From assembly GCF_000710345.2 (NCBI RefSeq), contig NZ_KL537415.1, positions 102,433 through 166,432 of the forward strand: a DNA stretch of 64,000 bases. Direction: 5' to 3'. Both the position numbers and the translations under genes were made by a program. This stretch comes from Curtobacterium sp. S6. GTDB lineage: Bacteria > Actinomycetota > Actinomycetes > Actinomycetales > Micrococcaceae. The stretch's first letter is position 1. Each line of letters begins with the position of its first letter. This document shows, piece by piece, positions 784-23,800 of this stretch. A model generated the notes under the pieces. That model saw only the letters and a list, made by a program, of their open reading frames with translations, had not been told where the DNA came from and did not search any database.

Positions 784-1605
784 CTACGCCCCGACCTTCC
801 GCAGGGTCAGCGTTTGCTCGGCGCGCCCGAAGGCACCGCGATCATCGTGAAGGATCGAGGAGGTCAGCCCGATGCCGTCGGTCCCGAAGCTCACGAAGTT
901 CTCCAGGCCCAGCCATTCGCCTTCCGGCTCGCGGAAGAGGTGAATCTGAAGGTCAACGTTCGGGAAAATCCACGCCCCGTCGCCGGGGGCCACGCGGGTC
1001 GCGATGCCGTTCGAGGCGTCCACGACGCCCATGAGCCGGACCCAGTCCGGCGAGTCCTGGCCCTCCACGAGCGGTAGCGTCGGGCGAATCCACCCGAGGC
1101 CGTGCCCGCTCCGGTGGCCCGGCGCCTGGAAGCCCTCGATGGACCGGATGAAGCCACCCGGCCACACGTCGGAGGCCCGCCACGTCGTGGATTCCTCGCG
1201 CGACGGGATGCTCGCTTCCTCCGTCGCGGCCACCTCGCTCGTGTCCGAAGTGATCAGGCGCCACGCCGTCGCCCGGATCGCGGTGCGGCCGCCGGCGATC
1301 AACTCCGCCTGGATCAGCTCGATCGTGCGGCCGGGACGGATGGTCGAGGTCACCACCTCGAACTCTCCTCCGGGGATCACGCCGAGAATCTCGAAGCCGA
1401 TGCGGGCGATGCGCATGCCCTCTCGCGGTTCGTGACGGCTCAGGCAGTGCGCCATGATTCCCGAGGCCGGGGCCATGTGCTGCTCGTGCTCGTTCCACGC
1501 CCCCTGAGCGTGAATCGTGGAACGGAACCGCCCCTGCCCTTCCTCCACGTAATAGGCATCCGCCTGCGTGAGTTCCTGCGGCTGTTGCTGACTCGTGTGC
1601 TCCAT
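784..1605 (-). CDS. Acyl-CoA thioesterase family protein (TesB-like, double hotdog)
   Basis: 273-aa protein resembling the actinobacterial thioesterase-family (4HBT_3/TesB-like) proteins built of two hotdog halves. Visible family features are an N-terminal GAWNEHEQHMAPASG segment, a central P-rich linker with WIRPTLPLVEG, and a C-terminal half with DGAWIFPNVDLQIHLFREP and a conserved GxSS...DDRG segment. It would hydrolyse an acyl-CoA of unknown chain. I chose the ATG at 1605 because GGGAGG sits 5 nt upstream; a longer frame to 1635 lacks such a site. It stands alone, convergent with the LGFP gene. Exact substrate unknown. Confidence 0.75.
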   Translation of the reverse strand: MEHTSQQQPQELTQADAYYVEEGQGRFRSTIHAQGAWNEHEQHMAPASGIMAHCLSRHEPREGMRIARIGFEILGVIPGGEFEVVTSTIRPGRTIELIQAELIAGGRTAIRATAWRLITSDTSEVAATEEASIPSREESTTWRASDVWPGGFIRSIEGFQAPGHRSGHGLGWIRPTLPLVEGQDSPDWVRLMGVVDASNGIATRVAPGDGAWIFPNVDLQIHLFREPEGEWLGLENFVSFGTDGIGLTSSILHDDRGAFGRAEQTLTLRKVGA

Positions 1606-1794
1606 GCGTCCTCCCTGGTGCCCGGTCCGTCGCACGCCGGGTCGTGGGGCCGTCCGCCCGGTGGCGCGCGGCCCGCGATGTCGTCCTCGTCATCGAGGTT
1701 CTGTGACGGACCTTACCCGGAACGGGCGTCGTACCTCGCACATCCGTACACTTGGTCCAAAGATCACGCGCCCACCGACACACCAGGGGACTCC

Positions 1795-2595
1795 ATGACG
1801 CCGAAACTGATGGCCTTCGACCTCGACGGAACCCTGGTTTTTGACCAGCGGATCAGCCGGGAGAGCATCGAGGCCATTCAGGCCTGGCAGGCCGCGGGTA
1901 ACGTGGCCGTCTGCTCGACGGGCAAGTCCATCGCCGCGACGATCCACGCCCTGAAGGGCACTGGCCTCCGGTTCGACTATTACGTCTTGTATACCGGCGG
2001 TGCCGTGACCGACGCCGATTTCCGGGTGCTGATGAGCCACACGATCCCCAACGACGTCGTGCGCGAGATCGTCGAAACCATGACGCGTGAACCCGGGGTC
2101 GCCGTCTACGGGACCACCCTCGAGACCGATCACGACGTGCAGTTCCCCTCCACGACCGGGACCAAGGCCAGCTCGATCCTGGCCCACTTCGCGCCCTTGA
2201 ACATCGAGGAAATCCCGGACCACGAATTCGTCGGGGTGCCCCTGTGGATCGATGGTCGGGAAGACCTGATCGGCAGCACGGCGACCTGGATCCGGGAGCG
2301 CTTCGCCGGGCAGGTGGACTGCCACCGCAACCAGGACTTCCTCGATGTGGTGCCGCCCAACTGCACCAAGGGCACGGGCCTGGCCTGGCTCGACGAGGCC
2401 CACCTCGGCGGGCGCTACCAGACCTACTCGATCGGCGACTCGTGGAACGACCTGGCCATGCACGAATGGGCCCAGCACGCCGCGTCCTTCCCGTACTCAC
2501 CGCAGGAAGTCAAGGACGCGACGCAGACGGTCGTGACCACCGCTGCCGAGTACATCCACTCCATCCTGGAGGGTTCCTCGGCGAGGTCATCGTAG
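1795..2595 (+). CDS. HAD-superfamily hydrolase, Cof type
   Basis: 266-aa cytosolic phosphatase of the Cof/HAD-IIB kind. HAD motif I is FDLDGTLV (residues 7-14, nucleophile Asp8). Motif II is the STGK segment near residue 39. Motif IV is SIGDSWNDLAM near residue 213, binding Mg2+. The C2-type cap lies between. The family dephosphorylates sugar phosphates or cofactors such as PLP and FMN; the substrate is not predictable. ATG at 1795 follows CAGGGGA. The longer open frame upstream overlaps the thioesterase on the other strand and is not coding. Confidence 0.85.
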   Translation: MTPKLMAFDLDGTLVFDQRISRESIEAIQAWQAAGNVAVCSTGKSIAATIHALKGTGLRFDYYVLYTGGAVTDADFRVLMSHTIPNDVVREIVETMTREPGVAVYGTTLETDHDVQFPSTTGTKASSILAHFAPLNIEEIPDHEFVGVPLWIDGREDLIGSTATWIRERFAGQVDCHRNQDFLDVVPPNCTKGTGLAWLDEAHLGGRYQTYSIGDSWNDLAMHEWAQHAASFPYSPQEVKDATQTVVTTAAEYIHSILEGSSARSS

Positions 2596-2731
2596 GTCAC
2601 CTGGGCCGTCCGCGTTCGCCCTGATCGCAACGCGAGGTCACCCGGGTACTCGCTTCTACTCACCCTTTGAGCGCGGCACGCGCGGCTCCCTATGGTGTTC
2701 AGAATTGATCACCTCAATCCGGGAGTGCCTC

Positions 2732-3646
2732 GTGAAAACCCTGATCTTCCTCGGCCTCATCGGGCTGGCCGCGCAGCTCGTCGACGGCTCGCTCGGCATG
2801 GCCTATGGCGTGACCTCGTCGACGCTCCTGCTGACCGCGGGCCTCGCGCCCGCGTCTGTCTCCGCGACGGTGCACCTGGCCGAGATCGGCACGACCCTGG
2901 CCTCGGGCGCATCCCACTGGAGGTTCGGCAATATCGACTGGCGGGTCGTGACCTTCATGGCCGTGCCCGGTGGGATCGCCGCTTTCTTGGGCGCCAACGT
3001 GCTGACCGCGTCCGGGGAGGGCGCCGAACCGGTGATGTCGGTGATCCTGTTGCTCCTCGGCGCTTATGTCCTGGTGAGGTTCCTGCGGATCCCGAAGACG
3101 CGGCCGTCCTTCCGTGGCAAGGTTCCCGGATTCCTCCTGATCCCCCTCGCGATGGTCGCCGGCTTCATGGACGCGATCGGCGGCGGCGGATGGGGCCCGG
3201 TCGGCACGCCGACGCTGCTGGCCTCCGGAAAGATCCCCCCGCGCAAGGTCATCGGGTCGATCGACGCCTCCGAGTTCGTGGTCAGCCTGGGTGCCTCGGC
3301 CGGTTTCCTCCTGGCCCTGGGACACCAGAGCATCAACCTGCCGTTCGTCCTTGCCCTACTGATCGGCGGCGTGATCGCCGCGCCCGTCGCGGCATGGCTC
3401 GTGCGTCTCTTGGCTCCGCGGATCCTCGCCGTCGGCGCGGGCGGACTGATCATCGTCACGAACAGCCGGACCCTGCTCTCGACCGACGCGGCGCAGTCCG
3501 CGCTCCCCGCGGGGGCCTCCACGATCGTGCTGATTGCCTTGGCCGCCGCCTGGGTTGCCACCCTCGGCTGGGTCATTCGTCAGCAGGTGACCGCGCCGGC
3601 CGCCGATCCCGCCCAGGAACCCGAGAAGGTTCCCTCGGAGCCGTGA
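2732..3646 (+). CDS. TauE/SafE-family membrane permease (sulfite/organic anion exporter type)
   Basis: 304-aa integral membrane protein with about eight hydrophobic segments. It has the two glycine-rich signatures of TauE/SafE (PF01925): DGSLGMAYG near the N-terminus and AGFMDAIGGGGWGPVGTP in the middle. Family members export sulfite, sulfoacetate or related anions; the real substrate is unknown. The start is GTG 2732, preceded by CGGGAG. A TTG further upstream at 2705 has no ribosome site. The tail is polar and Pro-rich. The gene is convergent with the lipoprotein gene, with a 4-base gap. Confidence 0.85.
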   Translation: MKTLIFLGLIGLAAQLVDGSLGMAYGVTSSTLLLTAGLAPASVSATVHLAEIGTTLASGASHWRFGNIDWRVVTFMAVPGGIAAFLGANVLTASGEGAEPVMSVILLLLGAYVLVRFLRIPKTRPSFRGKVPGFLLIPLAMVAGFMDAIGGGGWGPVGTPTLLASGKIPPRKVIGSIDASEFVVSLGASAGFLLALGHQSINLPFVLALLIGGVIAAPVAAWLVRLLAPRILAVGAGGLIIVTNSRTLLSTDAAQSALPAGASTIVLIALAAAWVATLGWVIRQQVTAPAADPAQEPEKVPSEP

Positions 3647-3650
3647 TCCG

Positions 3651-4487
3651 CTACTGGACCTGCCACTCCCAGCCGTCGTCGATCAGCGGATCCGTGTAGA
3701 CCAGGGTGCCCGCCTCCTGAGGAATGTCGAGGATGACCGCGCCCGACGTCTTCTCCCCGGGCCCCATGCCGAGAGGAATCGTCTGGTGAGGCGGAATGCA
3801 GCTGTACGTGGAGACGGTTGCCGGCTGGCTGATGAGGTTCCCGTCCGCGCCGATGAACTTCCAGTTCGCCTCGGAGAAGTAGAACTTGTTGTCGTACAGG
3901 ACGCTTTCCATGTCCGCGGCCGACCCCGTCGAGACGTCCATGTTCAGGCGGATGAATCGGCCGTTTTCGGGCTTGCCGGCGTAAGGGGCCGTGCACTGGG
4001 GCGAGTTTTGAATGCCGTTGAGGACCATGGTCGCGGCGGGCTGACCGCTGGCGCCGTTGATGACCGCTGGCTGGCCGATGCTCTTGACCAGGTTCCCGCG
4101 CTCGGATCGGGTTCCGTTGGCCGCCGGTGCCTCCTGCTCGGCCTGCGGGGTGGAGGCCTTGGGGGCCGGCGTCGGGCTTTGCTCGGTCCCCTGGCTCTGG
4201 CCTCCACTGTTCCCCTGGTCGGTTCCCTGGCTCTGGCCACCGTTATTCCCCTGGCTCGAGGAAGAGCCGGAGGGCTCCGGGGATGAACTCTGCGTTCCCT
4301 CCGAAGGCTTCTTCGAGGATTCGCTGGGCGAGGCCGAGGCGGACGAGCTCGACGACGTCGACGACGACCCGGAAGGTGAGTCCTTCGAGTCATCCGACGA
4401 CCCACCGCATCCGGCGACCGTGAGGCCCAGGAGAGCGACGACGGCGAAGGTCGCGAATCGAGATGGGTTCTGCAAGGGGCGGTTCAT
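3651..4487 (-). CDS. Secreted lipoprotein with Ser/Gln-rich linker, DUF4352-like domain
   Basis: 278 aa. It begins with a signal peptide and a lipobox LTVAGC (lipidated Cys27). A low-complexity linker of about 100 residues follows, rich in S, T, P, G and Q, including two copies of GGQSQGT. A folded C-terminal domain (~res 140-278) contains two cysteines (QCTAPYAG, TYSCIPPH) that probably form a disulfide. The fold is compatible with the DUF4352/telobox-like extracellular domains of actinobacterial lipoproteins, but that assignment is tentative. The linker probably spans the peptidoglycan. Function unknown. Confidence 0.75.
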   Translation of the reverse strand: MNRPLQNPSRFATFAVVALLGLTVAGCGGSSDDSKDSPSGSSSTSSSSSASASPSESSKKPSEGTQSSSPEPSGSSSSQGNNGGQSQGTDQGNSGGQSQGTEQSPTPAPKASTPQAEQEAPAANGTRSERGNLVKSIGQPAVINGASGQPAATMVLNGIQNSPQCTAPYAGKPENGRFIRLNMDVSTGSAADMESVLYDNKFYFSEANWKFIGADGNLISQPATVSTYSCIPPHQTIPLGMGPGEKTSGAVILDIPQEAGTLVYTDPLIDDGWEWQVQ

Positions 4488-4558
4488 GGTGACGTCCTTT
4501 GGAGTGCGATGTTATGTGATTACTCACCTCGGCATCAGCTTACCGCCAGGTTCGCTCG

Positions 4559-5485
4559 TCAGGGGGCTGTGGACGAAAGAATCTCCCGGACCGCGGAACG
4601 GAGCGGCGTCGGCTCCAGGCCGTAGCGACGACTCAGCGTCCCGGGGCGCATCAGCACCGGACGGGTCCACAGATACGACTGATTCACCAGCTCCCGGAGC
4701 ATGGGATGCGTCCATGCCACGGCCCTCACGACGCCCACCGGCACGGCTCGAATCGCTCGACGGCGCACCCCCGCCTCCTCGGACACCACGCGGTTCAATT
4801 CCTCCAGGCTGCACTCGGTGATCGACGGTGCGTGCAGTATCGCGTCCCCATCCGGCGCCAGCTCCGCGGCGTTCTCCGCGGCCACCATCATCGACGCCGC
4901 GAGGTCCGGAATATAGGTCACCGTGTGCTGCACACGGGGCTTTCCCAAGGCATATCCGGCCTTGCCCCGCGGGCGCGGCACCATGACCGCCAGATGTGCG
5001 ACGGAGGTCGACGGCGCGGCGGTCGGTCCCCACAGGTCCGAGGCGACGACGCTCAGCGTGGTCGCCTCGTGCTCCCGGCGGGCCGCGAGAAGCTCCGCCC
5101 GAACCTGGCCCATCGGGCTCCGCGGCGCCAAGGCATCGCCTTCCGCCAGATCTTGGGCCCCCGACCCGAATCCGTACACGGACTCCGGAAAGACCACCGG
5201 GATATTCGCCTCGGCGGCCAAATCCATGACGGCTCGTTCCCGCTCGGGGAGAACCTTTCGCCATGCGTCGGCGTCGTACGAGGTGTGAACGCAGTGGAAC
5301 ACGGCCGCCGCGTCCCGCATGGCCCGGGCCAGGAGGTCCCGGTCGGAAACGTCCCCCACCTGAACCTCGGCCCCTTCGACCTCCTGGTGGCTACGTCGCA
5401 GAACCACCACCCGATGACCGGCGTCGGCTAGATGTCGCACGATCTGGGTACCGATCTGACCGGCGCCCGTGACGAGGTATTTCAT
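4559..5485 (-). CDS. NAD(P)-dependent SDR/epimerase-family oxidoreductase
   Basis: 308-aa extended-SDR/atypical epimerase. The nucleotide-binding motif is at the N-terminus (TGAGQIG, residues 6-12), followed by GHRVVVLRRS whose basic residues after strand 2 suggest NADP(H). The middle contains VFPESVYGFG with the Tyr of the active-site region. The protein resembles NAD-dependent epimerase/dehydratases of actinobacteria often placed beside a TetR gene. It is divergent from the TetR gene at 5595, and two identical 13-bp palindromes lie in the shared control region, so TetR repression is likely. Substrate unknown. Confidence 0.8.
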   Translation of the reverse strand: MKYLVTGAGQIGTQIVRHLADAGHRVVVLRRSHQEVEGAEVQVGDVSDRDLLARAMRDAAAVFHCVHTSYDADAWRKVLPERERAVMDLAAEANIPVVFPESVYGFGSGAQDLAEGDALAPRSPMGQVRAELLAARREHEATTLSVVASDLWGPTAAPSTSVAHLAVMVPRPRGKAGYALGKPRVQHTVTYIPDLAASMMVAAENAAELAPDGDAILHAPSITECSLEELNRVVSEEAGVRRRAIRAVPVGVVRAVAWTHPMLRELVNQSYLWTRPVLMRPGTLSRRYGLEPTPLRSAVREILSSTAP

Positions 5486-5501
5486 GATCCACCACTTTCT
5501 G

Positions 5502-5514
5502 AGAGCAGTGCTCT
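5502..5514. promoter_or_regulatory. Palindromic operator (TetR-type), copy 1
   Basis: AGAGCAGTGCTCT is a perfect 13-bp palindrome around a central G, 16 bp upstream of the SDR start. It is identical to the copy at 5558-5570, 56 bp away. Probably bound by the divergent TetR protein. Confidence 0.7.
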
Positions 5515-5557
5515 CTCATTGATGGATTCAGCGTATGCCAGGTCGGGGTCTCATTCA

Positions 5558-5570
5558 AGAGCAGTGCTCT
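5558..5570. promoter_or_regulatory. Palindromic operator (TetR-type), copy 2
   Basis: Second identical AGAGCAGTGCTCT palindrome, 12 bp upstream of a CAGACT (-10-like) box that leads with a 6-nt gap into the TetR start codon. The position suggests autorepression. Confidence 0.7.
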
Positions 5571-5594
5571 CGTTTTTTGTGGCAGACTGAATCC

Positions 5595-6275
5595 ATGAGC
5601 ACCCCACGTACCACCCGCGCCGAAACCCGCGCGCACATGGAGGCGGCGATTCTGGACGCCGGTCGCCAGCAGTTGGCGACGCGCGGCGCCGCCAACCTGT
5701 CCCTGCGGGAGGTCGCGCGCACGATCGGCGTCGTCTCCTCGGCGGTGTACCGATACGTCTCGAGCAAGGACGAGCTCCTGACGATGCTGTTGGTCGATGC
5801 CTACGAGTCTCTCGGCGGCTTCGTCTGCGAGCGCGTCGACCCCGCGACGGAATCCGCCGCGCGTTTCCGGGCCATCGCCCACGCCATGCGGAACTGGGCC
5901 CTGGAACACCGTGAGCAATGGGCGCTCCTGTACGGATCGCCGGTGCCCGGCTACGCGGCCCCGGAGGAGCGCACCACGAGCGCGGGGACACGAGTCATCG
6001 GGATGCTGATCGCGGCGATCGCGGAGGGAAATCCCAGGTCAGGCCAGCCTTCCGAAGCCCTGACCGCGTGGATCGTCCCGGAGGTGGAAAAACTGGGCGT
6101 CGAGGCCACCCCCACCCAGATCGCGTTCGGCATCGAGGCCTGGGGAACGCTGATCGGAACCATCAGCATGGAACTCTTCGGGCAGCTCGGCCCGCTGCCG
6201 GAAGAACTCGGCGAAGAGATCTTCGCACGCACCACGGGGTCGCTCGTAGGGCGCCTGACCGGCGGCGACGCCTAG
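5595..6275 (+). CDS. TetR/AcrR-family transcriptional regulator
   Basis: 226 aa. The N-terminal helix-turn-helix occupies residues ~12-60 (REVARTIGVVSSAVYRYVSSKDELL is the recognition region). The C-terminal ligand domain is of the TetR_C/WHG-like type. It is divergent from the SDR gene and probably represses it and itself through the two palindromes. The ATG at 5595 lies 6 nt after CAGACT, so the mRNA may be leaderless. Its stop codon overlaps the stop of the convergent TetR gene by four bases in a CCTAGG. Confidence 0.85.
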   Translation: MSTPRTTRAETRAHMEAAILDAGRQQLATRGAANLSLREVARTIGVVSSAVYRYVSSKDELLTMLLVDAYESLGGFVCERVDPATESAARFRAIAHAMRNWALEHREQWALLYGSPVPGYAAPEERTTSAGTRVIGMLIAAIAEGNPRSGQPSEALTAWIVPEVEKLGVEATPTQIAFGIEAWGTLIGTISMELFGQLGPLPEELGEEIFARTTGSLVGRLTGGDA

Positions 6276-6892
6276 GCGTCGCCCTTGATCCGGTCCACGA
6301 GATTCAGCAGGTCCTCCAGGCCATCCGGGCTCATGATCGACGCGGCGCCGGGGGCCGACTCCCGCAGGCTATCGACGACCGGCGCCCCCTCCGAGTCGAG
6401 CCCGCCGCCCGCCATCGCGGCGTTGTAGTAGAGGCCGTCGCCCATGAGGAGAATCGCGGAGGCGATCACGGGGTCGCCGACCTCTCCCAGGATGATCTCG
6501 TACCAGTCCGCGTGGATCCGGCGCATGGCCTCGCGGGCCTTGGGCTGCGCCTCCTGCCCCAGGCTCAATACGGCGATGAACGTGCGGTCTATCGCCGCAC
6601 CCTGGCTCGACTCGTCGTTGAGGTAAAACGCGGAGGAGCGCACGTAGTACCGCGAGGGGCCTTCGGGGGACGAACGCATGAGCTGCCGGTCCTCCTCCGC
6701 ATAGTGGAGGAGGCGTTCGATCAGGCCGTCGGCCAGCGCGTTCTTGTCCTTGAAGTGATAGAGCAATCCGCCCTTGGAGACCTCCGCGCGCGCGGCCACC
6801 GCATCCATGGTCGCCGCTCGCTCCCCCTCCGAAATCAGAATGGACTCGTAGGCGTCCAGGACGCGGGTCTTTGCACTCATGATGTCGACCAT
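6272..6892 (-). CDS. TetR-family repressor of adjacent MFS efflux gene
   Basis: 206 aa with an N-terminal HTH (VSKGGLLYHFKDKNAL recognition helix) and a C-terminal domain of the TetR_C group seen in LfrR/QacR-like efflux repressors. It is divergent from the DHA2 efflux pump at 6966, with an imperfect ACNGTC-GACNGT operator between them. I chose ATG 6892 because AAGG lies 4 nt upstream; an ATG at 6880 (MSAKT...) is possible but has no clear ribosome site. The likely role is drug-responsive repression of the pump. Confidence 0.82.
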   Translation of the reverse strand: MVDIMSAKTRVLDAYESILISEGERAATMDAVAARAEVSKGGLLYHFKDKNALADGLIERLLHYAEEDRQLMRSSPEGPSRYYVRSSAFYLNDESSQGAAIDRTFIAVLSLGQEAQPKAREAMRRIHADWYEIILGEVGDPVIASAILLMGDGLYYNAAMAGGGLDSEGAPVVDSLRESAPGAASIMSPDGLEDLLNLVDRIKGDA

Positions 6893-6908
6893 AATGCCTT
6901 GGCGGTAA

Positions 6909-6922
6909 ACAGTCCAGACGGT
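6909..6922. promoter_or_regulatory. TetR-type operator in the efflux-pump control region
   Basis: ACAGTCCAGACGGT is a 14-bp imperfect palindrome (ACNGTC-CA-GACNGT, mismatched only at the third position). It lies between the divergent TetR and MFS genes, overlapping where both promoters must be. Confidence 0.6.
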
Positions 6923-6965
6923 ACAGTTGCGGTAGTCAACCGAACCATCACGGGATTGGAGCAGC

Positions 6966-8489
6966 ATGTCTCTCACCTCGAGGCGCAAGAACCTGCGCCC
7001 GGAGCACCACGAGCGCCGTTGGGCCGCCCTGGCCGTGCTCATGCTGCCCGTGATGCTGATCGCCGTGGACAACACGGTGCTCTCCTTCGCGCTGCCGCCC
7101 ATCTCTTCGGACCTCGAGCCCACGGGCACGCAGTTGCTGTGGATCGTGGACATCTATTCCCTCGTGCTCGCCGGCCTCCTGGTCCCCATGGGGAGCCTGG
7201 GGGACCGCATCGGGCGGCGTCGCCTTCTGCTGATCGGCAGCACGGGATTCACCGTCATCTCGATCGCGGCCGCCTTCGCTCCGAGTGCGGCCTGGCTGAT
7301 CGCGGCCCGCGCCGCGATGGGCCTGTTCGGTTCGGTGCTGATGCCGGCCACGCTGTCCCTGATCCGGAACATCTTCGTCAACCCGCAGGAACGCCGCCGC
7401 GCGATCGCGATCTGGGCCTCGGGCTTCTCCGGGGGCGCGGCCCTCGGGCCGATCGTGGGTGGGTTCCTCCTCGAACACTTCACGTGGGGATCGGTGTTCC
7501 TGCTGGCCGTGCCCATGTTGGTCCCGTTGCTGGTCTTCGCGCCGATGCTGGTTCCGGAGTCGAAGGACCCGAAGCCCAACCGCATTGACATCCCGAGCAT
7601 CGTGCTGGTCATGGCCACCATGACGCCGCTCGTCTACGGCATCAAGACGGTCGCCAGCGACGGGCTCCGCGTCGACGTCGTGGCCTGCCTGATCGTCGCC
7701 GTCATCGCGGGCATCTGGTTTGTCCGGCGGCAGCTCGGACGGCCCGACCCCATGCTGGACGTTCGCCTGTTCACCAACCCCGCTTTCTCGGGGGCGGTCA
7801 GCGCAAACCTGCTGAGCGTGTTCTCACTGGTGGGTTTCCTGTACTTCGTGTCCCAGCACCTCCAGCTCATCAGCGGCATGACGCCCATGCAGGCCGGTTT
7901 CGTGCTGATCCCGGGGCTCGCGGCGACGATCATCGCCGGCCTCACCGTGGTTCCGTTGGTTCGGCGATTCAAGCCGTCACACGTGGTCGCCGGGGGCCTC
8001 ACGCTGAACGCGATCGGCTTCGCGATCATGACCTTCGCGGGCCCGGCCGGTTCGGACCTCGGGCTGATTCTCGCGTTCGTGATCCTGGGCGCGGGGATCG
8101 GCTCCGCGGAGACTATCTCCAACGACCTCATCCTCTCGGCGGTGCCCGCCCATAAGGCCGGCGCGGCGTCGGCCATCTCGGAGACCGCCTACGAATCCGG
8201 CGCGGTGCTCGGCACGGCGGTCCTCGGCTCGATCCTCAACGCGGCCTACTCGGCCAACGTCTCCGTCCCGTCGGACGTTCCCGCGGCGGCCCGTTCCACC
8301 GCGCAGGAAACCCTCGGCGGCGCCACGGAGGTCGCCTCTCACCTGGGCGGACCGGCCGGCGCACAGCTCCTCGAATCCGCCCGCTCGGCCTTCGACTCGG
8401 GGGTCGCGCTGACCTCGGGCATCGGCGTCGTCCTGATGATCTTCGCGGCCGTCATGGCCCTGCGGACCCTGCGGGATGCGGAATCATAA
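6966..8489 (+). CDS. DHA2-family MFS multidrug efflux transporter (SmvA/LfrA/QacA-like, 14 TM)
   Basis: 507-aa proton-driven exporter. Family signatures seen are VDNTVLSFALP in TM1 (with the membrane-embedded Asp of DHA2 pumps), the loop motif A-like GSLGDRIGRRR, and motif C-like GAALGPIVGG in TM5. The length and segment count fit 14 TM. ATG 6966 follows ATTGGAG. It is paired with the divergent TetR gene, as in lfrA-lfrR and qacA-qacR. Likely substrates are lipophilic cations or dyes; specificity is not provable from sequence. Confidence 0.87.
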   Translation: MSLTSRRKNLRPEHHERRWAALAVLMLPVMLIAVDNTVLSFALPPISSDLEPTGTQLLWIVDIYSLVLAGLLVPMGSLGDRIGRRRLLLIGSTGFTVISIAAAFAPSAAWLIAARAAMGLFGSVLMPATLSLIRNIFVNPQERRRAIAIWASGFSGGAALGPIVGGFLLEHFTWGSVFLLAVPMLVPLLVFAPMLVPESKDPKPNRIDIPSIVLVMATMTPLVYGIKTVASDGLRVDVVACLIVAVIAGIWFVRRQLGRPDPMLDVRLFTNPAFSGAVSANLLSVFSLVGFLYFVSQHLQLISGMTPMQAGFVLIPGLAATIIAGLTVVPLVRRFKPSHVVAGGLTLNAIGFAIMTFAGPAGSDLGLILAFVILGAGIGSAETISNDLILSAVPAHKAGAASAISETAYESGAVLGTAVLGSILNAAYSANVSVPSDVPAAARSTAQETLGGATEVASHLGGPAGAQLLESARSAFDSGVALTSGIGVVLMIFAAVMALRTLRDAES

Positions 8490-14951: not shown

Positions 14952-14982
14952 GGCCTCGGTGCCGCCGAAAACCGCCGAGGCC
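14952..14982. terminator. Terminator hairpin between convergent genes
   Basis: GGCCTCGG...CCGAGGCC stem with a GCCGCCGAAAAC loop, between the exporter and the hydrolase pseudogene. Confidence 0.55.
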
Positions 14983-17053: not shown

Positions 17054-18055
17054 TCAGCCTGTCCCAGAGCCCGAAACCTTCAGAGCACCATCGAGTGCTG
17101 CGGCGCAGGCATCCACCCCGATATCGATGCCCGTTGCGGCCAGCTGCCCGCTGATCCCCCCGGGGTTCACCAGGTTGTACTCGACGATGTAGGGGAACGC
17201 CAGGTCGATGCCGACGTAGTTGATGCCGTGCTCCTGCAGCTCACGGCCGACCTCCTCGCACAGCTCCCGGGCGGCCTCGGAAATCTCGAGTTCGGTCTCT
17301 ACCCCGCCGACCGCGTAGTTACCGCGGAATTCCGCTCCCGTGGGCGTCTTTTTGTAACCGCCCACGACACGACCGCCGGCAACAATCACTCGGTTCTCGG
17401 CCGCAGCCATCTCCGGGATGTACCGCTGCAAGAGGGTGTATTCCTCGGCTTGACCGTACGCTTCACGCGTGTGCATCTCGTACTTCTGGTAGGCGTTCCC
17501 GGTTGCGGCCTGGATCAATGCGGACCGGTTCGAGTCACCCTTACGCAGGAGAAAGACGCCGGCGCCGCACCCCAGGTTCGGTGGTTTCAGGACCCAGGTG
17601 TCGTCGGGCGCCGCGTCGACGACCTCCCGCACCTCGGACTCCTGCAGGAGCACATGCGACGGGGCGAAATGTTTCGCGGCCCGCAGCCCGAGCACACCGA
17701 TTTTGTTGTTGATGAAGACAACAGATGATGGCCGGTTGACGAAGGTGACTCGCTGCTCAAGCACCCAGAGCAGCTGGAAGAACTCTCGCTCTCGGGAGGG
17801 GTGCGAGTATTCCAGGAGCCACACCAGGTCGAAGTCCTCGCAGGAGAGCGCCTCGGTCATCCGTGGGTGCTCGTCTCCCACCTGACTTTCCTCGAACGGG
17901 GCGGTGCGCGCGGTGACACGGCCGTCGACGAGGGTGAGCGTGTCGACGTCACCGAGCACAACCTCATGGCCGAGCTCGTGGAGGGATCGGGGAATGAAGA
18001 AGTTGTTGACCGGTTCGTAGTGGGTTCTGTGGAGTGTCAGGACGAGGATCTTCAC
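17054..18055 (-). CDS. ATP-grasp ligase, glutathione-synthetase (GshB/RimK)-like
   Basis: 333 aa, last gene of the six-gene operon. A GshB-like N-terminal Rossmann region (MKILVLTLHRTHYEP) comes first. The ATP-grasp fold follows, with the ATP-binding Lys in WVLKPPNLGCGAGV, a second hinge near LLQRYIPE, and the metal-binding strand IVEYNLVNPGG (Glu/Asn pair). The fold activates a carboxylate as acyl phosphate and joins it to an amine or thiol. It starts at GTG 18055 (AAGG 9 nt upstream), overlapping the previous stop in GTGA. Since this chromosome already places it between biosynthetic genes and not with a gamma-glutamylcysteine ligase, a glutathione role is unlikely. Probably forms one amide of a small peptide product. 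Confidence 0.82.
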   Translation of the reverse strand: MKILVLTLHRTHYEPVNNFFIPRSLHELGHEVVLGDVDTLTLVDGRVTARTAPFEESQVGDEHPRMTEALSCEDFDLVWLLEYSHPSREREFFQLLWVLEQRVTFVNRPSSVVFINNKIGVLGLRAAKHFAPSHVLLQESEVREVVDAAPDDTWVLKPPNLGCGAGVFLLRKGDSNRSALIQAATGNAYQKYEMHTREAYGQAEEYTLLQRYIPEMAAAENRVIVAGGRVVGGYKKTPTGAEFRGNYAVGGVETELEISEAARELCEEVGRELQEHGINYVGIDLAFPYIVEYNLVNPGGISGQLAATGIDIGVDACAAALDGALKVSGSGTG

Positions 18056-19227
18056 GGGAGTGCCTTCTGGCGTTGGAGGGATAGTTTCGCTTCGGTGATC
18101 GTGCTTCCGGCGAGGATCACATACGCGTGCCGGTCCGCAGAGCACACCATGTCGCCGCGGTGACCTGCCGCTTTCAGGACATCGGCCTCTTGCACACTCT
18201 CGGTCCGTCGTACTGTGTCCAGCCAGTGCTGATCGGTGGATGGCCAGGTGCGCAGATCGGGGAAGAGGACGCTCGCCTGGTTGCCGGTTGGTTCTGCGTC
18301 GGGCAGTTGTTGATGCTGGTAGGCGGTGAACAGCGCCTCGAATGCCGACCGGCCAACGCTCCACTTCATGAGGTCAGCGATGTGGTCGCCGCCGACTCGT
18401 CCGTGGGCTTCAATGAGCCGGGGTTGCCCGTCCTCGAGAATGAACTCACTGTGCGAGAGCCCAAACCGGTAGTCGGCGGCGTCGAGAACCGCGCGGGCCG
18501 CATCGAATAAGCGATCCCGATGCTCGTCTGGGATTCGAGCCGGCTGATGGTGGCCCGTCTCGACCAGTCCGCTCGTCCCGCCCGTTTCTTTCTCGGTCAC
18601 CACCAAGGGGCGGTGCACACCATTCCAGGAGATGCTTTCCACCGAGAACTCGGATCCGACGAACCGCTGCTCGACGAGGTAGGTGCCGGGCTCCAGCTGG
18701 ACGGCGTGAAGCTGCCTTTCCGAGGTGATGCTGTGTACCCCACGGCTGCCGGAGCCGGAGTTTGGTTTAACGACGATGCCGTGGGGAGCTCGCGCGAAGA
18801 ACCGCCGAAGGCCTCCGTCCGACTCCTCCGAAATGTTTGCTGACCAGTGGAGTCCGTTAAGGGGCGAATCGGTGGGCAGCGACGCCCGCAGTCGATGCTT
18901 GTCCCGCATCACTTCCAGGCTCCTCACCGTGGGGAAATTCCCGCCCGCCAGGCCCAGGGCACTGTTCACGAGCGCGGCCACCTGAGAACTGTCGTCTCCC
19001 AGGCCGACGCACAGCACTTCCTCCGGGGGATGCCCGCTCCTCCCGACGATCGGCTCGAGGGCGCGCGTGACCTCGAGGGCGTCTAACGGGTCGGCCACCT
19101 CGACGGCCTCCCGTTCGGTGGTCAGCGAGGAGAGCGACCGAGCATCCGCGACGGCGGTCATCGAGGCGCCCACCGATTCGGCCGCGTCGAGGACGGCCTG
19201 GCGAGGGTTAAGGACGAAGAAGATCAC
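18052..19227 (-). CDS. ATP-grasp carboxylate-amine ligase (L-amino-acid ligase type)
   Basis: 391 aa. An N-terminal preATP-grasp region (MIFFVLNPRQAVLD) is followed by the ATP-grasp core: ATP-binding VVKPNSGSGSRGV near residue 150, hinge YLVEQRFVGSEFSVE, and the metal-binding stretch HSEFILEDGQPRLIEAHGR near residue 260, followed by GGD. The EAHGRVGGD form is the variant seen in dipeptide-forming ligases related to BacD and DdaF/DdaG rather than biotin carboxylase. The start ATG 19227 overlaps the MFS stop (ATGA), and its own stop overlaps the next GTG, so it is translationally coupled on both sides. Substrates unknown. Confidence 0.82.
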   Translation of the reverse strand: MIFFVLNPRQAVLDAAESVGASMTAVADARSLSSLTTEREAVEVADPLDALEVTRALEPIVGRSGHPPEEVLCVGLGDDSSQVAALVNSALGLAGGNFPTVRSLEVMRDKHRLRASLPTDSPLNGLHWSANISEESDGGLRRFFARAPHGIVVKPNSGSGSRGVHSITSERQLHAVQLEPGTYLVEQRFVGSEFSVESISWNGVHRPLVVTEKETGGTSGLVETGHHQPARIPDEHRDRLFDAARAVLDAADYRFGLSHSEFILEDGQPRLIEAHGRVGGDHIADLMKWSVGRSAFEALFTAYQHQQLPDAEPTGNQASVLFPDLRTWPSTDQHWLDTVRRTESVQEADVLKAAGHRGDMVCSADRHAYVILAGSTITEAKLSLQRQKALP

Positions 19228-20423
19228 GAGTCCACCTTTCGACGTGAGAGAACCGCGGAACCGGAGAAGCCGAGGGCGGCCACCGGAAGCACCAGCCAGA
19301 GAACTGAACCGGGGGTGCCGAGATGCTCGATTAGGGCGCCGCCCGCACTCGAGCCCGCCAGCGAGGACACGCCGCCGACCGTGGCGGTAGTGCCGTACGC
19401 GCGAGTGAGCCCAGGCCCCTCACTGCGGAGCCGCGCGGTCACCTCATCGAGGGTCGGGCTGATCAGAAGCTCAGCCAGGCTGAACAACGTCGCGAAGGCA
19501 ATCACGGCTCCCGGCCCCGCCGGTATGGGCAACACCAGGAACGCTCCACCGAACACCAGGAATCCGGTGGCGAGAATATGCGGGGATCGGACGCCCTTGA
19601 GGAGCCCGACGAGGAGCGGATACTGCACGACGAGGATAAGTATCGCGTTACCCGTGTACACCCACGTCGAGCCCAGCGGGGTGCCGAACCCTCTCTCCGC
19701 GTAGACGGGGACAACGAGCGCCCACTGGGAGTAGATGCCCCAGTACGCCAACGTGCAGCCGAGCAGAACGAGGAAGGGCTTGTCGAACCCGGGCCCGGAC
19801 CGGGCAGCCGCTCGTCCCGCCGGCGGGGCACCCTCCTCCGGCGGCTGGAACGTGACGAAGAACAGGCCCAAGCCCAGCACCACGTATGAGATGACCACGG
19901 AAAGAACGATCACCGAGAATGACGCCGCGACGAAGACCAGACCACCGATGGACGGGCCGACGAGAGCACCGATGTTCACGGCGATGGATCTCATCGTGAT
20001 GGTTCGACGGTCGGCAGAGGCACGCATGAGCTCGGTTTTGAGCGCCAAAGCGGTGGAGGAACTACCTATGCTGGCGACCACGGCGCCGGCCGCGTAGACC
20101 AGTGTGTTGCCGTCGATCGCGAAAGCCAGAAGACCCACGCTGCGCAGGGCCAGACCGCCGACGGCTAGAGCCCTGGACCCCAACCGGGCGTTGACCCTGC
20201 CTATCAACCCCGACAAGATCTGCCCCGTGCCCGAGAGGAGCCCGAGGACCGCTCCGGTAGCGCCGGCGCCTATACCGCGATCCAGGAGTTCAAGGGTTAT
20301 CAGCGGATAGAACATGAACGTGGTGACGCCGCTGACCACAATCGCGGAGAGGAGGAGCCCCGTTGACGAGGTTGGCTGGCCACCGGCGCCGGGGAGCGTG
20401 GCATCGGGAGGCTGCGCGGTCAC
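19224..20423 (-). CDS. MFS transporter, probable product exporter of the ATP-grasp cluster
   Basis: 399 aa with about twelve hydrophobic segments. Motif C-like VNIGALVGPSIGG lies in TM5, and the N-half loop reads GLIGRVNARLGSRALAVGG, a motif A relative. It is an MFS of the drug:H+ antiporter kind. It sits between two ATP-grasp ligase genes with 4-base overlaps on both sides (GTGA upstream, ATGA downstream), so it is made together with them. The usual meaning in such operons is export and self-protection. It could instead import a precursor. Confidence 0.82.
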   Translation of the reverse strand: MTAQPPDATLPGAGGQPTSSTGLLLSAIVVSGVTTFMFYPLITLELLDRGIGAGATGAVLGLLSGTGQILSGLIGRVNARLGSRALAVGGLALRSVGLLAFAIDGNTLVYAAGAVVASIGSSSTALALKTELMRASADRRTITMRSIAVNIGALVGPSIGGLVFVAASFSVIVLSVVISYVVLGLGLFFVTFQPPEEGAPPAGRAAARSGPGFDKPFLVLLGCTLAYWGIYSQWALVVPVYAERGFGTPLGSTWVYTGNAILILVVQYPLLVGLLKGVRSPHILATGFLVFGGAFLVLPIPAGPGAVIAFATLFSLAELLISPTLDEVTARLRSEGPGLTRAYGTTATVGGVSSLAGSSAGGALIEHLGTPGSVLWLVLPVAALGFSGSAVLSRRKVDS

Positions 20424-21568
20424 CGGATGTCCACCGTGAGCGCTTGCGATGCCGCGATGGCCCGATCCTGAGCGAGTGCCGGCGTGTTGGCGGTGGCAAA
20501 GACGTTGCCGATGCGCGCCCGGTACGAGTGAGTGTCCGAGACCCGGTCACCCACGGATTTCGACGCGGTCCACCCCGGCCGCCCAGGGTAATTCTGGAGC
20601 TCCTGGAGGCCGTCAACACCGCGCAGTCGACCCATGCTGGTGGCGTACACGCTCACGTGGCTGTGCCCGGCGTGAATCTCACGGGAGTTCGGCAGGTCGG
20701 GCTCGAGGTTAAGCGCGTCGTCGACCGCTAAGGCATACGGGTCAAAGTTGGTGCATTCGTCGATGGCGGGTGTGATCAGGGCGCCCGGCATCCGGGCGTT
20801 GAGTTCGACCAGTGCGAACCCGTGGGAGGTCTCGATGAACTCGATGTGAGCGAAGCCGACGTCATACCGTAGCGCCTCGAGAAGCCCGCGGGCCCAGCGT
20901 TGCACGTCCGCTTCCCACGGCGTGCCGTGCTCGTGGGGGAACGTCTTGACCTTCTCCAAGAACAGTGGAGGGGCCGTCAGGACACGGTTGGTCACGCCGA
21001 AGAAGACCGTTGCTTTGCCGTTCGACCAGAGCTCCGCCGAATAGACGGGGCCGCGGTAGTAGGGCTCGGTCATGTACTCCGCGGGGTCGTCGAGGGACTC
21101 GAGCGATGCGCGGAGTTCGTCTTCCGTACGCACCAGAGTCACACCCGCGGATCCGGTACCGCCTCGGGGTTTCAGGATCTTCGGGAGCTGATCGAGGGAG
21201 CCGGCAGGTTCCCCGCTCACCGCGTTTCGGACCCACTGCTTATCGCGCAGATCTCGCAGTCGCGCTGACGTGAAACGACGAGGCAGTTCGAACTCTTCGC
21301 GGAGCTCAGCTGCGACGACGCCCCAGGTGTCGGTGGGGCTGAAAACCCCACCGATCGTGTCTCGTTCGCTTCGGACGTACTCGCGCAACGTCGCGTGATC
21401 GCGCGTGGGAAAGGTCAGCACGTCGAGCCCGTCCACATCGGAGTAGATCGTGGGGTCCTCCGCGAGCAGCCTGAGCCGGTACCCGCGCGTGCTCGCGTGG
21501 TCGGCCATCCGCCGCACCCCAGCTGTCATCGCCTCCACGGCCAGTAGGATCTTCACTGCCGTTTGCAC
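20420..21568 (-). CDS. ATP-grasp ligase, carbamoyl-phosphate/biotin-carboxylase fold type
   Basis: 382 aa. The N-terminal Rossmann region (VKILLAVEAM...) precedes the ATP-grasp core: glycine loop KILKPRGGTGSAGVTLV near residue 130, and the C-terminal metal ligands FALVELNARMPGALITP near residue 255, where Glu, Asn and Arg are canonical. It is the first of three ATP-grasp genes in the operon. GTG 21568 has GAAGGG 4 nt upstream; an inner GTG at 21556 has no fitting ribosome site. It lies 12 bp after the PLP-enzyme stop. It probably couples the unusual amino acid made by the two upstream enzymes to another amino or carboxylic acid. Confidence 0.82.
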   Translation of the reverse strand: MQTAVKILLAVEAMTAGVRRMADHASTRGYRLRLLAEDPTIYSDVDGLDVLTFPTRDHATLREYVRSERDTIGGVFSPTDTWGVVAAELREEFELPRRFTSARLRDLRDKQWVRNAVSGEPAGSLDQLPKILKPRGGTGSAGVTLVRTEDELRASLESLDDPAEYMTEPYYRGPVYSAELWSNGKATVFFGVTNRVLTAPPLFLEKVKTFPHEHGTPWEADVQRWARGLLEALRYDVGFAHIEFIETSHGFALVELNARMPGALITPAIDECTNFDPYALAVDDALNLEPDLPNSREIHAGHSHVSVYATSMGRLRGVDGLQELQNYPGRPGWTASKSVGDRVSDTHSYRARIGNVFATANTPALAQDRAIAASQALTVDIR

Positions 21569-21580
21569 CGTCCCTTCGGT

Positions 21581-22666
21581 CTAGCCCTGATCGGTTGCTG
21601 AGTGGCTCCTGACTACAGGACGCCGATCCGTGGTGTGCGCGGTTCGCGTGCCCCACGAGCTTTCCTGCCCCACGCGATAAAGCTGCCCCGACCATTCCGC
21701 GTAGCACCACGGTGGCCGCAGGTCGGAACGCCGGGTCACCGGTTCGGGGGAGAAAGCGGACAACTGCGGGGAGGAAGGTTCCTCGAAAACTTGGCGGGTG
21801 TATCGATGCCCCGTGTCCGCGGCCAACATCACCACGTGCCTTGGTTCCGCCTCGCGCGAGGCCCACCGGGACACGAGGTAGTTCGCTCCGCTCGACAAAC
21901 CGGCGAAAACCCCGGTGTCCCGAAGGAGCGCTTGGGCGCCGACCACCGCGGGTTCGAACCCGACCCAGTGGATCTGGTCGTAGAGGCTGTAGTCGATGTT
22001 GCGGAACTCGATCGCGCTACCGATTCCCGCGATGATGATCTGGGGGTCGTCGACGTGCTCGCTACCGAAGGACACGCTCCCGAACGGCTGGATCCCCCAC
22101 AGCCTGTGGTCCACGCCGGTGGTGTTCCACCGGTGCGCGATTCCGGCCGTGGACGCCCCCGACCCCACACCCCCTACGAGCAGAAGCGGCTCGTCAGGTG
22201 TTCCCTGGGCTATCCGATCGGCGACCCGCTGATAGCCCAGGTAGTGAACGTTGTCGTGGTACTGGCGCATCCAGTGGGCGTCGGGATGTTCTTCGAGGTA
22301 TCGGTGGACCCTCGCGACACGGTCATTCTGGTCCAGGGCCAGCGAACTCTGGTTCGGCGCCTGCTCGACCGTCGCTCCCAACGCGAGCAGCTGGGCCTTC
22401 AAGGTGGCGTCGACGGTCACCGACGCGACGATGTGACACCGGTAGCCCTTCCAGTGGGAGACCAGGGCTAGCGCGTAGGCGTAGATGCCGCTGGAGCTGT
22501 CGACCAGGGTGTCGCCTCGTCGAATCTCGCCGGTGGACTCGAGATGGTCGATGGCGCCGATGACAGAGGCAACCTTCATGGATTCGAAGCGGACCACCGT
22601 GAGATTCTCAGCCACGCGAACGATGTCGGGTTCGGCCAAGCACTGTGCGATGTGTTCATGCGTCAT
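21581..22666 (-). CDS. Fold-type II PLP enzyme, cysteine synthase/SbnA-like
   Basis: 361 aa. The likely PLP lysine is Lys31 in RFESMKVAS, in the position of the NxTxSxKDR lysine of CysK. Next come the substrate loop DSSSGIYAYALAL (TSGNTG equivalent), the PLP-phosphate loop GGVGSGASTAG, and a C-terminal SSGANY whose Ser contacts the pyridine nitrogen. All the parts of a beta-replacement enzyme are there, but the motifs are divergent from housekeeping CysK. The neighbour upstream is a PduX-like kinase, and SbnA-type enzymes use O-phospho-L-serine. I therefore infer that this one converts a phosphorylated Ser or Thr to a new amino acid. ATG 22666 has GAAGGTGGG upstream and overlaps the kinase stop by 11 bp. 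Confidence 0.82.
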   Translation of the reverse strand: MTHEHIAQCLAEPDIVRVAENLTVVRFESMKVASVIGAIDHLESTGEIRRGDTLVDSSSGIYAYALALVSHWKGYRCHIVASVTVDATLKAQLLALGATVEQAPNQSSLALDQNDRVARVHRYLEEHPDAHWMRQYHDNVHYLGYQRVADRIAQGTPDEPLLLVGGVGSGASTAGIAHRWNTTGVDHRLWGIQPFGSVSFGSEHVDDPQIIIAGIGSAIEFRNIDYSLYDQIHWVGFEPAVVGAQALLRDTGVFAGLSSGANYLVSRWASREAEPRHVVMLAADTGHRYTRQVFEEPSSPQLSAFSPEPVTRRSDLRPPWCYAEWSGQLYRVGQESSWGTRTAHTTDRRPVVRSHSATDQG

Positions 22667-23588
22667 GTGAGCCCACCTTCTCGAATCGTGCGGTGAGGTC
22701 ACGTGCGTGGAAGTAGCGAGAAAGGCGTTCCTTATCCGCGATGCTGAGAGAGGCCGCGAAGAGCAGCATCACGATGGACCCGGTATGTGCTCGGGCGACG
22801 CCGATTGCTCCCAACTTCCGGAAGTCTCTGCCGAGCTCGTCGATGACGGGGTTCGGCAGGTAGTCCTGGGCAAGGAGAGCGCTACGCGTTGCTTCCTGCG
22901 CGACAACCTCGAGGTCTCGGCCGCGCAGTCCCTGGCGTATCCGCGCCAGGGACTCGGCGTAGTCGCGGGCGTTCTGGCGGTATGCAGCCAGGAGTTCGGC
23001 CTCACTGACGCGCCTGGTCTCAACGCCGGAACCGCTCAGGGCGTAGCAGGCGTGAAACGCGATATCCGAACCGAAGTCCTCGATCAACACGTGTTCCGAC
23101 GTCTTATAGAGCGACACCGAAGGGCGGAAGACGGGGTCTGATCGTTCGAGCCTTCGCAGTATGGCGATCACGTCCTGTTCCAGGAGGACCACGCCCGCGG
23201 CGTCGGCGAGGCACCGGAGAAAAGCCACGATATCCGCGGTGGAGCTGGCCATTCCGTGCCCGGTGGCTAAACCGGAGTCGAATGCCCAGGCCCCGCTCGG
23301 TATCCGCGCCCCCGGGTAGCGTTCGTGGAATTTGACCAGCGCGGCCTGCCGCAGAGGCGTCAGGCACGACGCGGGGTTTTGCGATTTTGCAGATGAGGAA
23401 AGTACAGCGCGGCTGAAGGATGCGGTCGGTAGCGATACCACCGCCACGGTCTCGTCTACCGGCCCTTGCCAGAGTTCCCCCAGAACGCCGTGCGCTATGC
23501 CGATGGCTGCCCGACGATCGGGTGGCGCCCAAGAACCATCCCGAGAACGTACGGTTGCGTCGCTGACTCCCTCTACCTTGACTTGCAT
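22656..23588 (-). CDS. GHMP-superfamily kinase resembling L-threonine kinase PduX
   Basis: 310 aa, first gene of the operon. The N-terminal motif GIAHGVLGELWQG corresponds to the GxxGELxQG start of PduX kinases. The GHMP ATP-binding loop is ATGHGMASSTADI (res ~117-129). The C-terminal motif reads GAIGVARAHTGSIVMLLF. PduX phosphorylates L-threonine to O-phospho-L-threonine for cobalamin side-chain synthesis, but no cobalamin gene is seen here. The partner is a PLP beta-replacement enzyme plus ligases. The likely job is to activate the hydroxyl of Thr, Ser or an analogue for replacement. ATG 23588 has only a weak GGGACGGG upstream. Substrate is inferred, not proven. Confidence 0.75.
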   Translation of the reverse strand: MQVKVEGVSDATVRSRDGSWAPPDRRAAIGIAHGVLGELWQGPVDETVAVVSLPTASFSRAVLSSSAKSQNPASCLTPLRQAALVKFHERYPGARIPSGAWAFDSGLATGHGMASSTADIVAFLRCLADAAGVVLLEQDVIAILRRLERSDPVFRPSVSLYKTSEHVLIEDFGSDIAFHACYALSGSGVETRRVSEAELLAAYRQNARDYAESLARIRQGLRGRDLEVVAQEATRSALLAQDYLPNPVIDELGRDFRKLGAIGVARAHTGSIVMLLFAASLSIADKERLSRYFHARDLTARFEKVGSHDA

Positions 23589-23627: not shown

Positions 23628-23800
23628 AACGACCTAGAGGTGTGGCATAAATCTCGCCAGCAGGATACGCCCCTAGTCACAGCCTGTAAAGGGTGTCTCA
23701 CACCGTGGCGGATCCCTCCCCAGGGTTCGCACGGCACGGCCCCGCCAGGCGCACAAACTCGTTTCCACACAAGCCGGCGGCTGGGGGCTAACCTCGAACC

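Follow-up and report, generated by a model that had tools for sequence, protein, structure and literature searches.

Six tightly packed genes and their families

In a 64-kb window of the Curtobacterium sp. S6 genome (64,000 nucleotides, the whole stretch analyzed here, to which all coordinates without a locus name refer), the minus strand between positions 17054 and 23588 carries an operon of six tightly packed genes, which encode a small-molecule kinase (kin), an enzyme dependent on pyridoxal phosphate (PLP; plp), a transporter of the major facilitator superfamily (MFS; mfs) and three ATP-grasp ligases (agA, agB and agC). The operon begins with kin (22656–23588; ATG start, 310 residues), which overlaps by 11 bp with plp (21581–22666; ATG, 361 residues), and a 12-bp gap leads from there to agA (20420–21568; GTG, 382 residues). 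The last three genes, mfs (19224–20423; 399 residues), agB (18052–19227; 391 residues) and agC (17054–18055; 333 residues), are each joined to the preceding gene by a GTGA overlap. All six frames are open between these ends, and the frames and overlaps given in the original prediction for this DNA are confirmed. For agC and plp, the list of open reading frames (ORFs) places the starts further upstream (18364 and 22702, respectively), but the homologs favor the shorter versions; our searches used a 373-residue form of plp, and agC sequences beginning in frame at 18049 or 18097. Among the six genes, Pfam and NCBIfam reveal no gene for a nonribosomal peptide synthetase (NRPS), polyketide synthase (PKS) or carrier protein, as had been predicted, and they bear out the gene families that had been named, in case of the PLP enzyme at the superfamily level.

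The kinase scores 28.2 bits against Pfam GHMP_kinases_N (cut-off 22.3). While a single-sequence search of the PDB with kin yields no GHMP structure, a profile search retrieves a GHMP kinase, and in Foldseek, its AlphaFold model (pLDDT 90.4) resembles IspE and mevalonate kinase at E values of about 1e-10 and TM scores of about 0.6, with galactokinase also among the matches; as modeled, the protein has the GHMP fold of a PduX-like kinase. Of its stretches GELWQG, GHGMASSTAD and AHTGS, the first two contain the motifs G-E-L-x-Q-G and G-M-x-S-S-T-A-D, which are invariant or nearly so in 48 kinase rows. The relatives of kin and agC named in this study come from about 8000 protein-database candidates sharing most words with them; for kin, the matches listed include Lysobacter, Massilia and Allorhizobium proteins, and some relatives are labeled ‘uncharacterized protein involved in propanediol utilization’ or ‘L-threonine kinase’ in JGI/NCBI records. 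PduX itself, an L-threonine kinase producing O-phosphothreonine, lends its name to relatives of kin and likewise has the GHMP fold, but kin lies beside PLP enzyme and ATP-grasp genes, not beside propanediol or cobalamin genes.

The PLP enzyme belongs to the PALP fold (101 bits against Pfam PALP), yet scores 129 bits on the SbnA model TIGR03945, far below the equivalog cut-off of 350. The label ‘SbnA/CysK-like’ in the original prediction is therefore appropriate for the superfamily, but not as a claim of SbnA orthology; judged by sequence, plp belongs to a subfamily of its own apart from SbnA, namely the zincophore-associated subfamily described below. Residue K43 (in the 373-residue form), the presumed Schiff-base lysine, is invariant in an alignment of 18 rows. 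SbnA and SbnB of the staphyloferrin B pathway, and enzymes of the VioB/CmnB type, function in diaminopropionate synthesis. The operon resembles these systems in its PALP-fold enzyme and its O-phosphoserine logic, and differs from them in having a dedicated GHMP kinase and no SbnB-like partner: none of the six genes encodes a protein of this ornithine cyclodeaminase family, and the two PF02423 matches in the genome lie elsewhere (G000:C9 and C12:1285480).

The three ATP-grasp proteins are distinct from each other. agA matches Pfam LAL_C2 (54 bits) and ATP-grasp_4 (31 bits). It finds no match in a single-sequence search of the PDB, whereas its profile A4 finds BL00235 at 8e-24, and the top Foldseek matches of its AlphaFold model (pLDDT 73.8) are the L-amino acid ligases BL00235 and RizA. 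By domain, profile and modeled fold, agA is thus an ATP-grasp protein of the L-amino acid ligase type, with a predicted peptide-bond-forming activity. agB matches ATP-grasp_4 (44.5 bits) and has the stretch E-A-H-G-R at the position of E-L-N-A-R in agA; this E-x-H-x-R motif, at a presumed metal-binding site where agA has E-x-N-x-R, occurs in all five aligned agB proteins (from the window, L108, L114, L117 and L037). The PRK02186 matches of agA and agB both span only positions 2–396 of that 890-position model. agC is GshB-like (93.5 bits against GSH-S_ATP) and carries RGN and E-x-N-x-VNPGG stretches, of which RGN and E-x-N are kept in an alignment to 1gsa, but it reaches just 127 bits on the glutathione synthase model NF003573, which has an equivalog cut-off of 272. 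mfs, finally, scores 56.5 bits against MFS_1 and is presumed to be an exporter.

Recurrence and sporadic distribution

The arrangement of these genes is more than a chance product, since the identical six-gene order recurs in G052 (L108:6893–13354), which belongs to the same family but to a different genus. Here, the frames likewise overlap or nearly abut, and the proteins share 36% (kin), 49% (plp), 47% (agA), 42% (mfs), 37% (agB) and 56% (agC) identity with those of the window; the original prediction had named a lack of joint conservation as grounds for abandoning it, and in this one distant genome, all six genes are conserved together. Beyond this case, the operon is sporadically distributed. 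Counting the Curtobacterium sp. S6 genome itself in each instance, the family (395 genomes) and the order (396) each have two genomes with agA at E <= 1e-25, and the class (394) has two with agC at E <= 1e-30. Within the genus of G052, agC is present in one of four genomes, which is G052 itself.

Relatives and partial sets are found much further afield. Among the 48 proteins listed for agC, those from the Alphaproteobacteria Allorhizobium undicola, Qipengyuania flava and Sphingomonas sp. Leaf242 have 61–65% identity, followed by Arthrobacter (55%), Actinomyces (51%) and Streptomyces (about 40%); the Arthrobacter protein P0140 is not identical to the agC of L108. The Allorhizobium kin and agC protein clusters have the same longest contig (7068), and the same is true of two other kin/agC pairs (7974 and 7223) and of one PLP/kin pair (14937), which indirectly suggests that the respective genes are co-located. 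To survey the neighborhoods of the PLP enzyme, we used the best 80 of 467 relatives in genome contigs, a sample which is not random and in which several loci are cut by contig ends. Four of these 80 loci (L037, L045, L066 and L093) contain kin, PLP and agA genes together: in Streptomyces L066, these three are followed by MFS and methyltransferase genes, and L037 has a kinase gene, the PLP gene, two ATP-grasp stretches and a second PALP gene. Nine Amycolatopsis loci combine PLP and agA genes.

Two plasmids carry related sets. On a Streptomyces globosus plasmid, PLP, ATP-grasp, MFS, agB-like and agC-like genes lie beside an NRPS gene and a P450 gene; a kinase gene was not detected at this locus. 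On the conjugative Pantoea agglomerans plasmid pNBBC01-3 (L118:5890–13308), the set begins, as in the window, with genes for a PduX-like kinase, an SbnA/CysK-type PLP enzyme and an ATP-grasp protein, and continues in a different order with GshB-like, MFS, leucyl-aminopeptidase-like and methyltransferase genes. The PLP enzyme of this set (228 bits on SbnA, under the cut-off) is of another subfamily than plp, but has the same kind of partners, and the leucyl-aminopeptidase-like protein hints at a peptide product or at self-protection. Hence, the predicted co-occurrence of kinase, PLP enzyme and ATP-grasp genes is seen both in other genomes and on a plasmid. Given the recurrence of all six genes, their sporadic spread and the partial sets on plasmids, we regard the six-gene unit as real and probably mobile.

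Synteny at the level of the genus was considered and rejected. Of 34 other genomes searched in the genus, two share the lipase-like gene that lies beside agC in the window, and the pair at 14970–16932 matches these two at 82–83% DNA identity. The operon DNA is absent from the stretches fetched from these two genomes; a clean empty site was not found in the genus mates, because the right flank did not match. Lastly, a further agC match, in G986 (L115), has 37% identity over part of the length, and no other operon gene was seen there.

One PLP subfamily beside DUF364 or ATP-grasp genes

The PLP subfamily to which plp belongs (about 45–56% identity) is otherwise typical of loci with a DUF364 gene and a Zur box. 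In tblastn searches with the DUF364 protein of L105, a locus described below, 69 of 72 loci without an ATP-grasp gene gave a match, as opposed to 0 of 17 with such a gene, one of which (L114) has no PLP gene. The three exceptions, which lack both DUF364 and an agA-type gene, are L032, L046 and L075. The Zur box, allowing for at most one mismatch and for any position in loci of up to about 17 kb, shows a similar contrast: it is found in 54 of 67 loci without an agA-type gene (none of the 67 in any of five shuffles) and in 1 of 13 loci with one (Fisher p = 9e-7, a value that overstates the independence of these related rows). The box in the one ATP-grasp locus, L066 (16904, one mismatch), lies about 7.9 kb past the PLP gene, and a one-mismatch match in L118, which is outside the 13 loci counted, falls within a coding region (8847). 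We call the Zur-boxed PLP/DUF364 loci zincophore-type by their gene content.

By these features, the operon falls on the ATP-grasp side. It resembles the zincophore-type loci in its PLP subfamily and in its kinase, as 26 of 72 such loci have a GHMP kinase gene nearby, and differs from them in having three ATP-grasp ligase genes in place of Zur box, DUF364 and importer. The Zur box TGANAATNATTNTCA has no match with up to two mismatches in the window, and a looser published motif has a single one-mismatch match (53343), which is at chance level; the consensus that we used agrees with the Streptomyces coelicolor ChIP motif (PMC5472717). The operon and those of its flanking genes that were scanned, a part of the ORFs of the window, encode neither DUF364 nor a metal importer. 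Regulation through a DtxR/IdeR-like iron box was considered as well and rejected, with no match at up to three mismatches in the window or L105, and none at up to four in 20 loci and the window.

The same genome has a second, divergent kinase/PLP locus, L105 (G000:C12:1076000–1092000, 980–8118), where FecCD, ABC, Peripla_BP_2, DUF364, MFS, kinase and PLP genes form one run. A perfect 15-base Zur box (980–994) ends 10 bases before the called FecCD frame, and the PLP homolog has 45–47% identity to plp; L105 is probably a zincophore operon. Homologs of the L105 type are found in four genus mates (L106, L107, L109 and L110), each with a Zur box at zero or one mismatch and a kinase gene nearby. In further loci, the neighbors are Peripla_BP_2 and MFS genes (L030) or SBP_bac_5, BPD_transp_1 and MFS genes (L042), and L022 has DUF364, Peripla_BP_2, FecCD, RimK-like ATP-grasp and MFS genes. 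[S,S]-EDDS (ethylenediamine disuccinate) of Amycolatopsis japonicum is the characterized zincophore under Zur control, with a biosynthesis described as unlike NRPS or NRPS-independent siderophore (NIS) routes (PMC4993170, PMC9252823, PMC6103462). Opine zincophores are treated in a paper whose consulted part mentions neither EDDS nor ATP-grasp proteins nor a kinase (PMC7438024).

The PLP enzymes of the two types show few consistent differences. Among the alignment columns with a conservation of 95% or more in 72 zincophore-type rows, only seven are changed in six or more of eight window-type rows, and six of these changes are conservative, the seventh being Ser to Gln; the comparison concerns alignment columns and not individually mapped active-site residues. 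Because consistent differences are so few, both types likely catalyze the same or a very similar reaction. In a PLP tree of 94 rows, built with a quick method, the group of the window (P0002–P0005, P0007 and L117) is apart from the ATP-grasp group of Streptomyces and Amycolatopsis; L108, L117 and L118 form long branches of unsure placement.

Often directly upstream of the PLP gene in the metallophore-type loci, there is another ORF (L022:7205–7996 and 26 similar ones, one per locus), which weakly resembles N6AMT1 methyltransferases. An SbnI-like alternative kinase had been considered for this cluster of 27, and was dropped, as the L022 member finds its best matches in the PDB among methyltransferases of the N6AMT1 type.

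A candidate peptide pathway and its alternatives

With moderate confidence, we lean towards a small-peptide pathway that is independent of NRPS and consists of kinase, PLP enzyme, ATP-grasp ligases and MFS export. The kinase would phosphorylate the side-chain hydroxyl of free L-Ser or L-Thr, and the PLP enzyme would then expel the phosphate and attach a nitrogen nucleophile to the β carbon, either ammonia or a further amino acid reacting through its amine. The product may be an amino acid of the 2,3-diaminopropionate type or one with an N-(2-amino-2-carboxyethyl) group; the sister enzymes of the Zur-boxed zincophore-type operons probably provide a building block of the same kind. This block would not be passed to a DUF364 protein but to agA, agB and agC, which would link it with at least one other amino acid, and the resulting di- to tetrapeptide would be exported by the MFS protein. 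The original prediction is partly supported, in its operon, families and co-occurrence; the assignment of the PLP enzyme to the zincophore-associated subfamily, and not to SbnA orthologs, modifies it. The strongest support comes from two observations: kinase, PLP enzyme and ATP-grasp genes recur with different PLP subfamilies, in the window and in Pantoea, and DUF364 and the agA-type ligase replace each other beside one and the same subfamily.

In several aspects, this pathway has known parallels. BacD, BL00235 and RizA are L-amino acid ligases of bacilysin, rhizocticin and similar pathways; the operon shares with these the MFS transporter and, in agA, the LAL_C2 domain and the best PDB match, but it has three ATP-grasp genes, no anticapsin-type genes, and a non-proteinogenic residue that apparently comes from the kinase and the PLP enzyme. 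The dapdiamide pathway likewise combines a diaminopropionate-type PLP enzyme, an ATP-grasp ligase and an MFS protein for a small peptide, whereas the six genes include a kinase and neither an NRPS/adenylation gene nor SbnB. By analogy, the operon might work like a bacilysin-type ligase pathway joined to an amino acid synthesis like that of EDDS or SbnA. A characterized cluster with this gene set, which would have refuted the prediction, was not found described in the open-licence PMC literature. The PNP-1 cluster is a different one, and the cluster of strain Eh318 merely includes an ATP-grasp/glutathione synthase gene (PMC4010436).

A number of observations weigh against this pathway. No member of the family has been characterized, and we infer every chemical step as well as the product class; in NCBIfam, the matches of agA, agB and agC all stay below the curated cut-offs, so that ‘ligase’ is a name taken from the family, and the transport direction of mfs is assumed. 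Only 32 of 88 loci, of which some are truncated by contig ends, have a kinase gene in the vicinity of the PLP gene (26 of the 72 that lack an ATP-grasp gene and 6 of the 16 that possess one), and no kinase gene was detected at the nine Amycolatopsis ATP-grasp loci; the supply of the PLP enzyme by a kinase is therefore not universal. Furthermore, the ATP-grasp label changes just about three times on the PLP tree, so that few independent events underlie the contrasts in DUF364 and Zur box. Genome G617 (L114:8870–12374) keeps only agA, MFS and agB genes, at 64–76% identity; agC, the kinase and a close PLP homolog were not found there, the best PLP match having 27% identity. This trio lies between AbiE-like ORFs on one side and a tyrosine-recombinase-like ORF on the other, which owe their names to their sequence and not to a search, and its agB gene occurs in one of 57 genomes of the genus, G617 itself. 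The trio may have a role without the remaining genes, with decay, a different substrate or a protective role as possibilities. Together with the kinase counts and G617, the strongest objections are the importers at some ligase loci and the ATP-grasp genes in some metallophore-type loci, and these lead to the first alternative.

The operon could produce a metallophore of the peptide type, directed at a metal other than zinc, in which the ligases would add ligand groups to an aminopolycarboxylate made by the PLP enzyme, the MFS protein would export the product, and uptake would be encoded elsewhere. The sister enzymes adjoin DUF364 genes, Zur boxes and importer genes (FecCD, Peripla_BP_2 and ABC in L022 and L105, SBP_bac_5 and BPD_transp_1 in L042), and their sequences are little different from those of the window type. 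Even at an ATP-grasp locus, the one Amycolatopsis locus scanned (L070), FecCD and ABC genes suit a metallophore, beside methyltransferase-cluster and SDR genes. Conversely, four metallophore-type loci have a RimK-like ATP-grasp gene (L022, which was scanned, and L023, L046 and L075, assigned by clustering), the products of which are not alike to agA–agC by blastp; L022 and L023 also have DUF364. We nevertheless consider a metallophore rather unlikely, given that no importer is encoded by the operon or its scanned flanking genes and that no Zur or iron box lies nearby, that the host already possesses the Zur-boxed L105, and that the operon is sporadically spread, with related sets on plasmids. 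For the same reasons, that is, the lack of metal box and importer, the sporadic spread and the plasmid-borne sets, we favor an antimetabolite-like secreted peptide over a zinc chelator.

The second alternative is a sub-case of the peptide pathway, with Thr in place of Ser: the kinase would provide O-phosphothreonine, from which the PLP enzyme would form a β-methyl diamino acid of the 2,3-diaminobutyrate type for the ligases. Kinase/PLP enzyme pairs occur in uridyl-peptide and lipopeptide antibiotic pathways, and the propanediol-utilization and L-threonine kinase labels among the relatives of kin, together with its two conserved motifs, would agree with such a route. Still, its pacidamycin-type form involves an argininosuccinate-lyase-like partner, which is not among the six genes, and the sequences do not discriminate between Ser and Thr as the substrate; we regard this variant as possible but doubtful.

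Finally, a role in primary or cofactor metabolism (cysteine, cobalamin or a glutathione-like thiol) in place of a secreted specialized product, which the CysK superfamily membership of plp and the GshB-like agC might suggest, is very improbable: a cysteine-synthase role of plp is rejected, as the SbnA/CysK-type model gives 244 and 228 bits for two separate loci of the genome compared to 129 for plp, agC is below the glutathione synthase cut-off, the operon includes a transporter, agA is too rare for a core function with 2 of 395 family genomes, and among 11 loci scanned in part, we saw no operon for cobalamin or cysteine synthesis, which the original prediction had named as a possible refutation.

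Apart from the operon genes, the window contains a promoter-like site upstream of kin (TTTACA-17-TATCCT, 23662–23690, minus strand), which is a consensus match only (one found, 0.8 expected by chance). Further away, the minus strand encodes an RHS-repeat protein (42049–47748; 1899 residues) and an FtsK/SpoIIIE protein with an FHA domain (51103–55395; 1430 residues), presumably EssC/EccC-like, with a protein-kinase-domain gene on the plus strand between them (48474–50465).

Returning to the peptide pathway, we tentatively propose, with less confidence than for the pathway as such, that the kinase and the PLP enzyme constitute an exchangeable module for making a zincophore-type aminopolycarboxylate, the second step being swapped between DUF364, for a zinc chelator, and ATP-grasp ligases, for a secreted peptide. 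The operon might then represent an uncharacterized class of ribosome- and NRPS-independent peptides that carry a metal-chelating amino acid and occur in actinobacteria as well as proteobacteria, in part on plasmids. The operon points to a compact route of six genes, easy to clone, towards small peptides containing a non-proteinogenic residue, a type of pathway that mining keyed to NRPS and PKS genes may overlook; related sets reside on plasmids, and relatives of agC and the kinase bear names from two phyla. The alternation of DUF364 and ATP-grasp genes beside a single PLP subfamily also raises two testable questions, namely what the zincophore-type PLP enzymes produce and how DUF364 acts on this product.

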